Of a DNA stretch of 20,957 nucleotides, positions 5,202 through 12,369 are shown piece by piece. The DNA is from a virus. The translations under genes were made by a program, and so were the position numbers. Each line of letters starts with the position of its first letter. Position 1 is the stretch's first letter. The notes beneath the pieces were generated by a model, which worked only from the letters and a program-made list of their open reading frames with translations, was not told the DNA's origin and made no database searches. Where the stretch lies: positions 1-20,957 of the IMG/VR virus record IMGVR_UViG_3300047509_000172; one strand, written 5' to 3'.

Positions 5202-5705
5202 ATGGCTGATGCGATGGACGTCTTCATGGGCCGGCTGGCGCGCGTTGTCGGTGGCACCGTGAACCCTCGAGATCACACGTTCTTCTCGGGCGCGATCGCG
5301 AAGGACGGCACCGGCATCACGGGGATCAAGGGCTGCTACTCGGTGGTCCCGAAGACGATCTCGCCACGTTCGACGCCGGTGGCCATCATCTACCCCGCCC
5401 CCTTCACGGCCACGCTCGCCTCAGAGGGCGAAGAGGACAACGTCGACCGCTTCCCGATCCTCCTGCTGGTGGCGCCGATCGACAAGTCGCAGATCTCTAT
5501 CCTGGTCAAGTACCGCGACCTGGTACCAGCTGCGTTTCGAGCTCACATGCGAGCCTTCCCGCCGGACCCGAACAATCCCGACGCGCTGTCCTGCTTCATC
5601 GAGAGCGGCACGCCGGGGGAGCACGAATTCGCCGGGATCCGCTACTACGCGTGGGAGTTCATCTGCCGCTGCGATCGCATGCTGCCCGTGGTCTACGTCG
5701 CATGA
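5202..5705 (+). CDS. Probable tail terminator protein
   Basis: A 167-residue protein with no recognisable catalytic motif. It has a short N-terminal helix (MADAMDVFMGRLARVVGG), then mixed beta strands (TPVAIIYPAPFTATL, RFPILLLVAP, ISILVKYRDLVPAAFRAHM), and an end rich in aromatics and Cys (YYAWEFICRCDRM). Size, mixed alpha/beta pattern and position just after the gp10-like gene match the tail terminator, the hexamer that caps the tail tube at the head end. The start ATG 5202 follows a GGGGGA-type ribosome site. Its stop overlaps the next start in an ATGA junction. The assignment is mainly by gene order. Confidence 0.6.
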   Translation: MADAMDVFMGRLARVVGGTVNPRDHTFFSGAIAKDGTGITGIKGCYSVVPKTISPRSTPVAIIYPAPFTATLASEGEEDNVDRFPILLLVAPIDKSQISILVKYRDLVPAAFRAHMRAFPPDPNNPDALSCFIESGTPGEHEFAGIRYYAWEFICRCDRMLPVVYVA

Positions 5706-7240
5706 GCCCAGCAGCCGCCACCGAAGCGATCGCGAACAAGGCCGTCTACAAAAGCATCGTGCTCGGCGACGGACCTCTTGGGTATTGGCGCCTCGACGAG
5801 ACGACCGGTCTGGTTGCTGCGGATTCGTCAGGCAACGGCCACAACGGAGCGCTCAGCGCCGCCGGCATCACGAAGGGCCAGGCGAGCCTCCTTGCAGGCG
5901 ATCCGGTCGATCCATCGATGGCCTTCGACGGCGCGCTCGGCACAATGATCTCGACCGGCTGGACAGTCCCGATTCCTTCGGGATCCCCCTTCTCGCTGGA
6001 AGCGTGGGTGATCTACACCGATCCCTCCACGGCGCACGGAAACATCGTCGTCGTCGGCTTTCCGACGGCAGTTCCGACCAACGAGACCTGCATTGGCCTC
6101 TCGACGGTGACTCTGATCCCTTTCTTTCGATTTGGAGGCGGGCTGAACATCTTTGTGCCAGCTATCACGCGGGGCTCGATCCACCACCTGGTCGCCACGT
6201 ATGACGGAAGCAACGGTCTCCTTTACCTCGATGGAGTTCCGGGCATCGGAGGTTCGAGCGCGCCGTCGGGGACTCCAGGCAACGGGCTGATCATTTCCTT
6301 CACGACCACGAACCTCGCGTACTGGACGGGCCAGCTGGACGAGGTCGCGATCTACGGTTACGCGCTGACGCCGCAGCAGATTCAGAATCACTACCTCGCT
6401 GGTGCCGTCGCATTAGGTTCGACAGCCAAGTGTGCGGAGGTGGGCGTGTGGACTGCGAAGGCCGCAGATGCTCTAGGGACATCAGCTGACTACGCAAACA
6501 CCATCCTCATGGACGGCCCCTCGGCGTACTTCCGGCTCGCCGAGCTCGTGGGTGCGAGCGTCGCCGTCGATGCCAGCGGTAACGGACTGAACGCCGCAAT
6601 CAGCGGCGGCATCGCACTCCGACAGCCGAGCCCCATCGCCGGAGACTCAGCCGACCGGTCAGCCACCTTTAACGGCACCAGCCTGGCTGTCGGCACGAGC
6701 AAGATCGTCCTCCCGCTCAACAGCCTTGAAGTCACCGGCCTTCCCTTTAGCGTCGAATGTTGGATCAACCCGACAGCGGTGATGTCGAGCTCCCCAAACA
6801 CGTGGAGTTGGATCGCCTCCCGCGAAGCCGCCTCCGGACAGCGTGAGGGCTGGGGCCTTGTGCTGAGCCCAGGGAACGGGCTCAGCTTCGAACAATGGCA
6901 CCTCGGGGCTGGGACTAGCGCGGGCTTCGCAGCCAACCTCGCAATCGGAGTCTGGCACCACGTCGTCGGCACCAATGACGGGCTCGGCGTCTCGAAGATT
7001 TACATGGACGGCGTCTTGAAGGCGACGCAGAATGCCTCGCTCCTATTCACCGCCGTTTCGGTGACCCCGACGATCGGAGTCAAATCCAGCCTCAGCTCTT
7101 TCGTGCCCGCGACACTGGATGAGGTCGCCTTCTACCCCTACGTCCTCTCTCAGGCACAGGTGACGAAGCACTACCAGGTTGGCGCCGGAAGTCTCTATGC
7201 CGTCGGGGCGATCGCCACCGCGAAGGACCAGGCAGCCTGA
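5702..7240 (+). CDS. Tandem LamG (concanavalin-like) domain virion protein
   Basis: A 512-residue protein with two laminin-G/concanavalin-type lectin domains in tandem. Domain 1 (about residues 20-235) opens with GYWRLDETTGLVAADSSGNG, includes FSLEAWVIYTD and IHHLVATYDGSNGLLYLDG, and closes with LDEVAIYGYALTPQQIQNHY. Domain 2 (about 265-500) repeats the order: AYFRLAELVGASVAVDASGN, FSVECWINPT, WHHVVGTNDGLGVSKIYMDG, LDEVAFYPYVLSQAQVTKHY. These are the classic LamG_3 landmarks. Such domains bind glycans or proteins and are common on phage fibres and surface decorations. ATG 5702 forms an ATGA overlap with the previous stop; an in-frame ATG at 5651 lies inside that gene and is unlikely. The position between tail terminator and tube genes is unusual for a fibre. 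No signal peptide or chaperone domain is seen. Confidence 0.85.
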   Translation: MSPAAATEAIANKAVYKSIVLGDGPLGYWRLDETTGLVAADSSGNGHNGALSAAGITKGQASLLAGDPVDPSMAFDGALGTMISTGWTVPIPSGSPFSLEAWVIYTDPSTAHGNIVVVGFPTAVPTNETCIGLSTVTLIPFFRFGGGLNIFVPAITRGSIHHLVATYDGSNGLLYLDGVPGIGGSSAPSGTPGNGLIISFTTTNLAYWTGQLDEVAIYGYALTPQQIQNHYLAGAVALGSTAKCAEVGVWTAKAADALGTSADYANTILMDGPSAYFRLAELVGASVAVDASGNGLNAAISGGIALRQPSPIAGDSADRSATFNGTSLAVGTSKIVLPLNSLEVTGLPFSVECWINPTAVMSSSPNTWSWIASREAASGQREGWGLVLSPGNGLSFEQWHLGAGTSAGFAANLAIGVWHHVVGTNDGLGVSKIYMDGVLKATQNASLLFTAVSVTPTIGVKSSLSSFVPATLDEVAFYPYVLSQAQVTKHYQVGAGSLYAVGAIATAKDQAA

Positions 7241-8032: not shown

Positions 8033-9091
8033 ATGTTTCGACGCTTCACCACCTGGCTCCGTTGGCAGCGGGCGCTGTTCCTTGCGCCTTATCTGCGGCG
8101 CTGGTCCGCCTTCCGCCGCGGTCTTTCGCTCGACGCAGCGATCTTCGCCTCGAACCCCACCTGGCGCCAGGTTCTCGGACTCGCCAAGGAGACCACGTGG
8201 GGCACGCCAGTGGTTGCGACCACCTTCTTCCCCGTCGCCAAGCCCTCGAGCTTCGTCCCTGACTTCGAGGACATCATGGACGACGGCGAGCGCAACAACG
8301 CCTCCTTCGACCAGGCGTACTACCAGGGCGTCGGCCTGACTCAGTTCGACACGGGGGAAATGCTGGTCTGGCCGGACGACTCGCTGCACTGGCTGATGGG
8401 CCTCTTCGGCGTCGACACCATCAGCGGCGCCGGCCCGTACACGCACCCGCTCACCCTGTTCAACACAGGCTTCCCGCCCTCGTACACGCTGACCCTCTAC
8501 GACAACCTGATCGCGACGGCGCGGCGCATCTCAGGCGCCATGGTCAACGAGGTCACGCTGAAGTGGTCGGTCAAGGGCAAGCTCACGATGCAGGCCAAGG
8601 GCATCGGCAAGATTGCCGACACGGTCGCCAAGCCGACCGAAGTCTTCAGCGCCGCAGCTGCCTACCTCGGCTGGCAGTTCGCGGCAAACATCGGCGGCGC
8701 CAACACCAAGATCGAAGAGGGCGAGCTCACGCTCAAGCGCCAGGTCGACGCTGTCTACGGCGCCGCCGGCACCCAGGATATGAACGACCGCTCGATCGAC
8801 ACCCTCTCCGTGACTGGCCGGTACACGTTCGCCGCGGCGGACGACACAGAGAAGGCCCTCTACACCGGCAACACGCAGCCCTCCTCGCTGCTCACCTGGA
8901 CGTCGGGTGCGAACAGCCTGGCCATCCAGATGACCAAGACGGCCTTCGGCAAGGGCGGCACGATCGACCGCTCGAACAAGTACAGCCGAACCGTGCTGCC
9001 GTTCAGGGCCATCGCCAACGCGACCGACGCCGGCACCGGAAACGGGCCCGCAAAGATCACCGGCATCAACACCAAGGCGGTCGCCTACTAA
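8033..9091 (+). CDS. Major tail tube protein with N-terminal extension
   Basis: A 352-residue protein. From residue 44 it reads TWRQVLGLAKETTWGTPVVA, the typical opening of siphovirus tail tube proteins of the Phage_tube_2 type. Later segments fit the same family: ITRD-like strands, a GPYTHPLTLFNT loop, SYTLTLYDN, SGAMVNEVTLKWSVKGKLTM, and a final region in which the chain returns to beta strands (NKYSRTVLPFRAIANATD). It polymerises as hexameric rings around the tape measure to form the tail shaft. Residues 1-43 are extra: eight Arg and three Trp in the first 33 residues with no acidic residue, amphipathic and strongly basic. The strong ribosome site supports this start. It lies just before the assembly chaperone genes, the standard order. 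Confidence 0.85.
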   Translation: MFRRFTTWLRWQRALFLAPYLRRWSAFRRGLSLDAAIFASNPTWRQVLGLAKETTWGTPVVATTFFPVAKPSSFVPDFEDIMDDGERNNASFDQAYYQGVGLTQFDTGEMLVWPDDSLHWLMGLFGVDTISGAGPYTHPLTLFNTGFPPSYTLTLYDNLIATARRISGAMVNEVTLKWSVKGKLTMQAKGIGKIADTVAKPTEVFSAAAAYLGWQFAANIGGANTKIEEGELTLKRQVDAVYGAAGTQDMNDRSIDTLSVTGRYTFAAADDTEKALYTGNTQPSSLLTWTSGANSLAIQMTKTAFGKGGTIDRSNKYSRTVLPFRAIANATDAGTGNGPAKITGINTKAVAY

Positions 9092-9130: not shown

Positions 9131-9631
9131 ATGTCAGATGAACTCAAGCCTGTCGCCGTGCCACCGCCAACGGTCACGCTGCCCGAGTGCGGCTACACGA
9201 TCACCTTCCGCAAGCGCACCGCGCAGGACCACCACGAAGCTCGAGAGGCCGTCATCTTCGACGGCTACCACAACCGGCAGCGCTACCTGCGCTACCTGCT
9301 CTACATGGCGGTCAGCATGGCCGTCAGGTGGGACAAGGTCGATGAGAACCAGCGCATGGTGCCCATCACGCTCGAGGAGCTCACCAACCTCAGCGACGCG
9401 GATTACATCTACCTGCTCAACGACATGCCGGCCCGCGTGGAAGTACGCCAGGAGGTGAACCCCCAGGCCGAAGACCCTTTCGCGCCATCGCCTACGCGCT
9501 CCTCAGAGGCCACGAGCTCGACGGAAGCGACCCCCTCGTCCAGTACGCCGTCGACCTCATCCAAGACCTCGAGCTCGCGGGCCAAAAGAACTGGACGCTC
9601 CAGCAGCTCCGCGCCCTCGACCGGCAGGTAG
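9131..9631 (+). CDS. Tail assembly chaperone (G-type, zero-frame product)
   Basis: A 166-residue protein. The first about 117 residues are folded-like: PECGYTITFRKRTAQDHHEA, a helical YHNRQRYLRYLLYMAVSMAV, and NLSDADYIYLLNDM, similar to tail assembly chaperones that sit between tail tube and tape measure genes. Such chaperones bind the tape measure during tube polymerisation and are absent from the virion. From residue 117 the zero frame turns into a Ser/Thr/Arg-rich low-complexity tail of 49 residues. At that same point a slippery heptamer occurs, and the -1 frame carries a normal-looking protein. So the Ser-rich end is probably the default, perhaps functionally unimportant, terminus. ATG 9131 follows AAGGGG. 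The call rests on position and the frameshift. Confidence 0.75.
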   Translation: MSDELKPVAVPPPTVTLPECGYTITFRKRTAQDHHEAREAVIFDGYHNRQRYLRYLLYMAVSMAVRWDKVDENQRMVPITLEELTNLSDADYIYLLNDMPARVEVRQEVNPQAEDPFAPSPTRSSEATSSTEATPSSSTPSTSSKTSSSRAKRTGRSSSSAPSTGR

Positions 9632-9699
9632 TCGAAGACATCAGGACCATCGAGGTTTTCAAGCGAGACCTCGGAGCGCTGCCGGCGCAGGAGGGATAG
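9131..9699 (+). CDS. Tail assembly chaperone GT-type product by -1 frameshift
   Basis: Predicted join of 9131..9481 and 9481..9699, giving 189 residues. After slipping at CCCTTTC (9475-9481) the ribosome would enter a frame encoding 72 further residues: RAIAYALLRGHELDGSDPLV, then QYAVDLIQDLELAGQKNWTL, QQLRALDRQVVEDIRTIEVF, KRDLGALPAQEG and TAG at 9697-9699. This stretch is helical, has normal composition and GC-ending codons, unlike the Ser-rich zero frame. It contains no ATG, GTG or TTG, so it cannot be translated independently. Fusing a G-like and T-like part by -1 frameshift is a conserved feature of siphovirus tail chaperone genes (lambda G and GT). The length ratio of the two products is not observable here. 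Strong inference, not proven. Confidence 0.75.
9475..9481 (+). promoter_or_regulatory. -1 ribosomal frameshift slippery heptamer CCCTTTC
   Basis: The heptamer fits the X XXY YYZ rule in the zero frame (C CCT TTC), so that the Pro and Phe tRNAs re-pair with CCC and TTT after slipping back one base. It lies exactly where the zero frame turns low-complexity and the -1 frame turns protein-like. No downstream pseudoknot or stem was established by eye. Confidence 0.75.
9689..9695 (+). promoter_or_regulatory. Ribosome binding site for an ATC-initiated tape measure gene
   Basis: AGGAGGG is a near-perfect Shine-Dalgarno sequence ending seven bases before an ATC codon at 9703. The nearest ATG in frame (9775) has no comparable site. 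The element overlaps the last codons of the -1 frame chaperone product and its TAG stop. Confidence 0.65.
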
Positions 9700-9702
9700 G
9701 CC

Positions 9703-12369
9703 ATCACAGACAGAGCTGAGCTCGAGGTTGTCGTCAGTGCCCAGGTCGACCGGCTACTTGCCGGCGTCTCGAGCATGGAGCGATCTCTGGCTGCCATCGA
9801 GAAGGCTCATGGCAGCGCCGCAACCGCGGCTGTGCAGCAGCAGAACGCGCTGACGAACCTCGAGGGGAAGGTCTCGAGCGTCACCGGAACGATCGGCAAG
9901 CTCACCGCGGTCTTCGGCGGTCTGTTCCTGGCCTACGAGGCCATCAAGCGCGGCTTCGAGGCCTTCGACTCGCTCGAGCAGCACAACATCGACTTGCTGC
10001 GCACTACAGAGATCCTCGGTGGCAACGCGCAGGCCGCCTCTTTGTGGAGCGTCGCCGCGAACGAGATGGGCCTGAGCCTCGACATGATCGACAAGGCCTT
10101 CACGAAGCTGTCGACGGACATGAACGCCGCTGCCAATCCGGCCCTCAAGCAGATGGGGATCAACGTCGAGGACGTCAACGGCAAGCTGCGCCCGGTCAAC
10201 GACGTCATCCTCCAAGCGGCCGACTATTTCCACCAGCACGCCGGCGCGGTGAATAACGCTGCGCTCGCCAACCAGCTCTTCGGGCGCAGTGGTTACGAGC
10301 TGCTCCCCATCCTCGAGCAGGGGCGTGCAGGCCTGGCAGCGCTCACCGAAGAAGCGAAGAAGTACGGACTCATCCTTGACTCGACGACGATCGAAAGAAA
10401 CGCGGCCCTCACCTTCCAGCTGAAAGAAGCTCAGATGGCAGGTGAGGGCCTTGCTTTGTCTCTGGAGAATGCGCTGCTGCCCGGCATCGCCGCGATCGGC
10501 CAGGCGTTCTCAAAGGTCGTCTCGGACAACCTGCCGGCCTTCATCGCCGGCGTGAACCGCGCGGTCAGCTACATCATCGGCTTCGTCGAAGGCCTGACTG
10601 GCATGACCATGAAGGTCGGCGAAGGCGCGATGGCGCTTTCCAACCTCGGCTCTGTCTCTGGCGACACCGGGACCGGCCTGGACAAGGCAGCCAGCTCCAG
10701 CCAGGCACTCGCCGACGCACAGCAGAGGGTCCGCGACCAGGCGCAGGAAGCCACTCGAGCGATCGATGCGCAGGTCACGGCGCTGAACGCACAGATGGCC
10801 GCGACCGCCTTCAGCGACCAGCAAGCGAGCCTGAAGCAGAAGTCCGAAGACGAGCAGCTGAATATCACGAAGCTCTCGCAGGACAAGCAGCTCGCGCTCT
10901 TCCTCGGAAACTCGGTGCAGGCCAAACAGATCGACGAGCAGCTGACCACCGCGAAAGAGCAGAACGCGCAGACGACGCTGCAGATCACGCGCGGAATCGA
11001 GAACGAGAGCATCAAGGACAAGATCGCGTCCCTCGAGCTGCAGAAGCAGAAGATCCAGGACGCGGCGAACGATCACATCCAGGCGATGCAGCGCGCGGCG
11101 CGTGGCACGACGGAGGCGATGGGCGGCGCGGCCGCAACGATGGCCCCCCTGTTCAGTAAGGCTGGCCAGGACGCCGCATCGAAGTTCAAGTTCGCCATGG
11201 ACGCCGGCGCCGAGGCCACGGGTGCCTCGATGGGCCAGAAACTCATGGACGCTCTCTTTGGGCCAGAGGTGTGGGTCGACACGGACCGCAACATCAAAGG
11301 GCACTTCGAGCGCCAGGGCGGCACAGACTTCATGAAGATCGGACAGGTTATCGGCGAGACGATCGGGACCGGCTTGACGACAGCGCTCGGCAAAGCATTC
11401 CAGAAGTGGTGGAACGACCTTGGCCAGAGGCTGTTTGACCCGGCCAGCGTTCCTGGTGCCGACACGGGACCTCTCCCGGGCACCCCGGGCGGGCCGCCCA
11501 GCACGTTGCCTTGGTATGCGGGCTTCGGAAGCGCCGAAGGGGGTGTCTTCACCCAGCCGACTCTCACGTGGGTCGGCGAGAAGCCCGGCAACCCAGAAGC
11601 GATCGTGCCGGCCGCTGCTCTGCAGGCACTCACTCAAGCCGCGGCCGCACCGCCAACGGGCTTGCGCCCAGGCAACACCGCGCCAGGCGCCTCGCCGCTG
11701 CCGGCAATCGCAGCTGCGTCACTGCCAGGCATGCCGGGGTCCGCAATCCCGACGTCCCTGCCTGCGGCGCCGCCCGCATCCACAGGCAGCGGGGCAATGC
11801 CGCCGACGGTCAGCAGTGCGCCACAGGCTGTGAGCGCTCCTTCATCCCTGCCGCCCATCCCGCCGGCCACGGTCGCTGCGTTCTCGCGCGGTGCTGGATT
11901 GTCCGAAGGTGCTTCCGTCCCCGCGGCCTTCGCAGCACAGCCCGGCACCGCAGCGCCCGCAAGCCCCCAGCAGCCGGTCAGCGGCTACAGCATTCTCAGA
12001 CTGCCCGAAGTAAACCCGGCGCAGCCTCCGTCGGCCTCCTCTCAGCCCGTGCCTTCGCTCGCACAGACCTCGACGATCGCCCCTGCCCTTCCCAGCTCGA
12101 GCCCGGCGCCGGCATCGCTGGCCCTTCCGAGCTCGTTCGCTGGCGCGGCCGTGAGCCAACCGGTCAGCGTGGCAACGAGCGGCGCGAGCTCCTCGACCAT
12201 CCGCGTCCAGGTCGACCAGGCGGCAGCCGCGGGGCCGCTTAGCGACCCCGAGATCAAGGCCCTCCTGAAGCAGATCGTGCAGGGTCAGGCAGCTGCCAAT
12301 CGGTTGCTCGAGGCTATCGGCAGCTATAGCCCGCGTGGTGGCTTGGCTGCGACACAGGGCCTCGCATGA
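9703..12369 (+). CDS. Tail tape measure protein
   Basis: An 888-residue protein if begun at ATC 9703 (864 from ATG 9775). The upstream 24 residues (ITDRAELEVVVSAQVDRLLA and on) look like a genuine tape-measure N-terminus and follow a perfect ribosome site; ATG 9775 has none. Regions, numbered from ATC: hydrophobic VFGGLFLAYEAI near 69-80; family core about 90-280 with GKLRPVNDVILQAADYFHQH; hydrophobic VSYIIGFVEGLTG near 285-300; coiled coil about 330-465; PEAIVPAAALQALTQ near 631, a motif common in tape measure C-termini; Pro/Ala/Ser-rich disorder about 646-826; final helix SDPEIKALLKQIVQGQ. It sets tail length, occupies the tube and aids DNA entry. At 0.15 nm per residue this implies a tail near 130 nm (inference). 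Its stop overlaps the next start (ATGA). Confidence 0.88.
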   Translation: MTDRAELEVVVSAQVDRLLAGVSSMERSLAAIEKAHGSAATAAVQQQNALTNLEGKVSSVTGTIGKLTAVFGGLFLAYEAIKRGFEAFDSLEQHNIDLLRTTEILGGNAQAASLWSVAANEMGLSLDMIDKAFTKLSTDMNAAANPALKQMGINVEDVNGKLRPVNDVILQAADYFHQHAGAVNNAALANQLFGRSGYELLPILEQGRAGLAALTEEAKKYGLILDSTTIERNAALTFQLKEAQMAGEGLALSLENALLPGIAAIGQAFSKVVSDNLPAFIAGVNRAVSYIIGFVEGLTGMTMKVGEGAMALSNLGSVSGDTGTGLDKAASSSQALADAQQRVRDQAQEATRAIDAQVTALNAQMAATAFSDQQASLKQKSEDEQLNITKLSQDKQLALFLGNSVQAKQIDEQLTTAKEQNAQTTLQITRGIENESIKDKIASLELQKQKIQDAANDHIQAMQRAARGTTEAMGGAAATMAPLFSKAGQDAASKFKFAMDAGAEATGASMGQKLMDALFGPEVWVDTDRNIKGHFERQGGTDFMKIGQVIGETIGTGLTTALGKAFQKWWNDLGQRLFDPASVPGADTGPLPGTPGGPPSTLPWYAGFGSAEGGVFTQPTLTWVGEKPGNPEAIVPAAALQALTQAAAAPPTGLRPGNTAPGASPLPAIAAASLPGMPGSAIPTSLPAAPPASTGSGAMPPTVSSAPQAVSAPSSLPPIPPATVAAFSRGAGLSEGASVPAAFAAQPGTAAPASPQQPVSGYSILRLPEVNPAQPPSASSQPVPSLAQTSTIAPALPSSSPAPASLALPSSFAGAAVSQPVSVATSGASSSTIRVQVDQAAAAGPLSDPEIKALLKQIVQGQAAANRLLEAIGSYSPRGGLAATQGLA

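Follow-up and report, generated by a model that had tools for sequence, protein, structure and literature searches.

A very probable lambda-type −1 frameshift in a tail assembly chaperone gene of an uncultured siphovirus-like phage, overlapping a conserved Ser/Thr-rich tail

The G/GT frameshift of phage tail assembly genes is well known, and the locus described here is assigned to it. The gene lies on a metagenomic viral contig of 20,957 nucleotides, a fragment of an uncultured siphovirus-like phage that is called the window below. Judging from its sequence and those of its relatives, the locus is very probably a lambda-type tail assembly chaperone gene expressed with programmed −1 ribosomal frameshifting. 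The evidence consists of the gene architecture, a slippery heptamer at the homologous codon of the relatives, a conserved −1 product, a chaperone-like fold and an excess of conservation in both reading frames.

The zero-frame ORF at 9131–9631 (+ strand) encodes the unshifted product G, of 166 residues. Directly 5′ of it is the gene of the major tail (tube) protein (8033–9091, + strand; Pfam PF18906 Phage_tube_2, E = 1.2e-21) and on its 3′ side the tape measure gene (9703–12369, + strand; PHROG tape-measure families), the placement of a G/GT gene. A blastn comparison of the window with phages gave no match. Four close relatives were found in all, the IMG/VR contigs L044, L006, L007 and L047, by aligning the tail-tube protein to its THSA-485A, Mufasa8 and Sonali relatives and then by a closer alignment; scans for close relatives with G, T or the tail-tube protein taken singly, and scans of genome contigs, returned none. 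Their tail-tube proteins are 48–71% identical to that of the window (71% in L044, 63% in L006, 50% in L007 and 48% in L047). Against PHROG, the G of the window has a weak match to phrog_508 (E = 0.006–0.04), and that of L006 matches phrog_313, Tail assembly chaperone, with E = 1.4e-8. The G part, modelled with AlphaFold at a mean pLDDT of 74, has as its best PDB match in Foldseek the HK97 tail assembly chaperone (PDB entry 2OB9; E = 0.15, probability 0.87, compared with 0.06 for the next match), at a low sequence identity of 16%, and the named top matches in BFVD are tail assembly chaperones. Homology of G to known tail assembly chaperones is thus carried by the phrog_313 match of L006 and the 2OB9 fold.

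The original prediction had placed a CCCTTTC slippery site in the zero frame at 9475–9481, and this site is indeed present: the zero-frame codons GAC CCT TTC (9473–9481) hold an in-phase C CCT TTC (9475–9481, + strand), which is the sole XXXYYYZ, whatever the phase, from 9346 to 9700 and the only one in the stretch over which both frames stay open. G therefore carries an X XXY YYZ heptamer in zero phase near its 3′ end, as G/GT genes do. At the same aligned codon all four close relatives have a heptamer in phase (AAATTTC in L044, CCCTTTA in L006, CCCTTTC in L007 and L047). In L044, the closest of them, the three X bases have all changed with respect to the window (CCC to AAA) and the X XXY YYZ slipperiness is retained. 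The background, counted over the genes of the window plus two relatives, is 7 in-phase X XXY YYZ heptamers with Y = A/T in 10,012 codon positions; that the window and all four close relatives have one at the homologous codon is, on this background, more than chance. Further, more remote relatives have CCCTTTT, CCCTTTA, CCCAAAA, CCCAAAC or AAAAAAC at the equivalent position. In the actinobacteriophage-like L011, L013 and L014, it should be added, the gene that follows the tail-tube gene ends with an apparent −1 shift near TCCCCTACTGG or TCTTTTACTGG, which are non-standard with respect to the X XXY YYZ heptamer.

From 9346 onwards the −1 frame meets no stop codon before the TAG at 9697–9699; it has 74 codons from the start of the heptamer and 72 after Pro-Phe. 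The T part occupies 9482–9699 (+ strand), its first full −1 codon starting at 9481, and the predicted GT fusion has 189 residues. The prediction of 72 protein-like residues ending at this TAG in a frame devoid of its own start is thereby borne out: the GC content at the three codon positions of the −1 region is gene-like (0.77, 0.35 and 0.85), and the product expected after the slip begins with (P/K)-F-R and runs for 60–81 codons in the window and in all four relatives. The window thus has a conserved −1 extension with no start of its own. That the −1 frame is open says little in itself, for it stays open in 28% of the synonymous recodings made of the zero-frame tail. We held the zero-frame amino acids, resampled synonymous codons and scored how similar each of the four relatives is to the window in the −1 frame; the observed similarity was reached in a simulated fraction of only 0.0005–0.006, so rarely that the −1 frame must be regarded as selected. 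The model of T has four predicted helices at modest confidence (pLDDT 69), and T, although conserved in all five phages (the window and the four close relatives), matched no profile family and no fold. Synteny, homology, fold, aligned heptamer and −1-frame conservation thus all support the G/GT-type shift at CCCTTTC that had been proposed. One might suppose that T is instead a separate protein, initiated at a start codon of its own or at a non-standard one with no frameshifting, all the more as some relatives (THSA-485A, and Sonali with its gene 14) are annotated or listed with a distinct downstream ORF that has a start. Yet the −1 frame after the heptamer has no ATG, GTG or TTG in the window, L047 or L009, the window has no start-bearing −1 ORF of at least 40 residues there, the first −1 start codon of L006, L007 and L044 lies well inside T, and the conserved ‘PFR’ residues of the −1 frame start exactly at the heptamer; we consider a separate T very improbable. 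That the two frames reflect a sequencing indel or gene decay in what is really a single-frame gene might be imagined for a metagenomic contig, but the same −1 transition falls at the same codon in five separate contigs, where the intact zero frame runs on for 12–49 codons, and the relatives refute this explanation in practice, leaving it a negligible chance.

The zero frame continues beyond the heptamer as a Ser/Thr-rich tail of 49 residues (9482–9628, + strand) that overlaps the −1 frame. The original prediction was right about the presence of a Ser-rich low-complexity tail but had set it against the −1 frame, whereas the tail itself proves to be conserved and enriched beyond what a by-product would be. 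We find it doubtful that this tail is merely a functionless consequence of GC-rich −1 coding. High GC3 does put C or G at position 2 of the zero-frame codons and so yields Ser, Thr, Pro, Ala and Arg there, 40% Ser + Thr is expected in the window on this basis, and the length of the unshifted tail varies (12, 24 and 49 codons). However, the tail of the window has 57% Ser + Thr compared with the 38–40% expected from −1 coding, and an excess over this expectation is also seen in L044, L006, L018, L025 and L031. With the wobble composition fixed, the excess appears in all seven phages compared (the window and six relatives, L018 and L025 being closely related to each other), with a simulated fraction below 0.006 in six and of 0.054 in L044. 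Control windows in other genes that reach the Ser + Thr z-score of the tail numbered 0 of 303 in the window and 0 of 362 in L006. In the reverse test, the −1 amino acids were held and the zero-frame similarity in the overlap was scored, with the region past the zero-frame stop as a control. The observed similarity was reached by 0 of 1000 simulations for L044–L006, 0.6% for the window and L006 and 4.5% for the window and L044, and none of these pairs showed an excess in the control region. For L044–L006 the zero-frame BLOSUM score in the overlap is 62 compared with 3 expected, and the −1 wobble position is identical at 19 of 25 codons in the overlap compared with 17 of 49 beyond it. The Ser/Thr tail is thus conserved beyond the −1 prediction among the three closest sequences (the window, L044 and L006). 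It is unlikely that this extra conservation is due to an RNA element that stimulates the shift and not to a coded tail. The overlap does lie directly 3′ of the heptamer and L006 has a hairpin with a z-score of −2.8, but no covarying consensus fold emerges from three sequences, changes between L044 and L006 are rarest at zero-frame positions 1 and 2 (on small numbers), and the Ser/Thr enrichment recurs in remote relatives. Between these explanations we lean, from simple tests on few sequences, towards an overlap that is truly dual-coding, in which an unshifted chaperone with a selected, probably disordered Ser/Thr-rich tail is encoded atop the start of T. If so, the frameshift would swap one functional C-terminus for another and not merely add T. 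A conserved Ser-rich tail with a −1 frame gaining stops had been put forward as grounds for rejecting the shift; the tail is indeed conserved, yet the −1 frame is open and conserved in four relatives, and such an either/or test is ill-fitting because both frames look functional.

In the mechanism that we propose, most ribosomes would pass C CCU UUC without slipping and produce G with its Ser/Thr-rich end. A minority would slip with the Pro and Phe tRNAs on CCU UUC, which would re-pair in tandem to CCC UUU, and would continue in the −1 frame to give GT, in which a helical T domain replaces the Ser/Thr tail. On the lambda model, G and GT would coat the tape measure protein and T would recruit tail-tube subunits. 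That slippage occurs is what we infer from the sequences, as are its rate and these protein interactions.

Several candidate contributors to a shift at this site were considered and set aside. A Shine–Dalgarno-like AGGAGGTGA (9450–9458, + strand) lies 16 nt before the heptamer and its pairing with the 3′ end of 16S rRNA amounts to −15.7 kcal/mol; as a selected stimulator it is unsupported, this level being reached by 24% of synonymous recodings and its conservation being absent in L006 and L007. A downstream pseudoknot or stem-loop is likewise unsupported, with fold z-scores of 0.5 to −1.1 in the window in addition to the lack of covariation noted above. Transcriptional slippage was rejected, as no homopolymer of at least five bases lies at the site, the only such runs being C5 at 9460 and 9531.

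The slippery heptamer of lambda is G GGA AAG, and the locus differs from lambda in its C CCU UUC, its longer unshifted tail (49 codons) and its closer product lengths (166 and 189 residues). It resembles lambda gpG/gpGT in the position of G between the tail-tube and tape measure genes, the late −1 shift and a T that would exist only as a fusion. In lambda, G binds the tape measure protein and the minority product GT links it to tail-tube subunits through T (PMC5009743). A second parallel is SPP1 gp17.5/gp17.5*, likewise a putative −1 shift in a tail chaperone gene whose zero frame encodes a long tail past the slip: gp17.5 has 173 residues, 112 of them shared with gp17.5*, the slip site is UUUUUUC and the fusion, at 297 residues, is far longer than the unshifted form (PMC6316719). 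The window differs in its heptamer and in the length of its fusion (189 compared with 297 residues). The original prediction had singled out the C-then-U heptamer as a departure and the two products of similar length as unusual. The composition and the lengths are as described; these features are nevertheless uncommon rather than exceptional, because the heptamer conforms to the usual X XXY YYZ pattern, relatives have it too in the forms CCCTTTA/C/T, and gp17.5 provides a precedent for a long unshifted tail. A search of open papers for frameshifting at CCCUUUC, CCCUUUA or CCCTTT found no phage case, and novelty of the heptamer is not claimed; a search for reports of tail assembly chaperones whose tail is serine-rich or overlapping gave nothing relevant. 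The new element is possibly the selected, dual-coded Ser/Thr tail. With this locus the conserved frameshift of tail chaperones would reach into an uncultured lineage and take in the CCCUUUN slippery class, and a dual-coded tail would make a neglected question testable, namely whether unshifted G requires its own C-terminus.

The cultured Arthrobacter phage Sonali could serve as a laboratory system for this question. Its tail region is homologous, although it is a distant relative (tail-tube protein 26% identical): near the end of the gene that follows its tail-tube gene it has C CCT TTT, the −1 frame there is open and the zero frame encodes a Ser/Thr-rich tail. In its record, genes 13 and 14 (L062:152–849) are each annotated as a hypothetical protein and no fusion is given; the two resemble an unannotated G/GT pair whose heptamer is CCCTTTT.

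Finally, some features of the neighbouring genes should be mentioned. The conserved N-terminus of the tape measure protein is without an ATG, GTG or TTG (9690–9705) and begins at ATC 9703 and not at ATG 9775; this ATC lies 8 nt past a GGAGG and aligns with the ATG start of L044, so that it may be either an AUC start codon or an error in the base. The −1-frame stop TAG 9697 shares its frame with the tape measure gene, as in L006 and L047, whereas the frames differ in L007, and its read-through would give a GT–tape measure fusion. The tail-tube protein starts about 35 Arg/aromatic-rich residues (8033–8140) upstream of the start in its relatives, with a good Shine–Dalgarno site. Between the head–tail connector and tail genes, an ORF of 529 residues (5651–7240) contains a Laminin_G_3/concanavalin-like domain (E = 2.2e-37), and its product is possibly a virion decoration.
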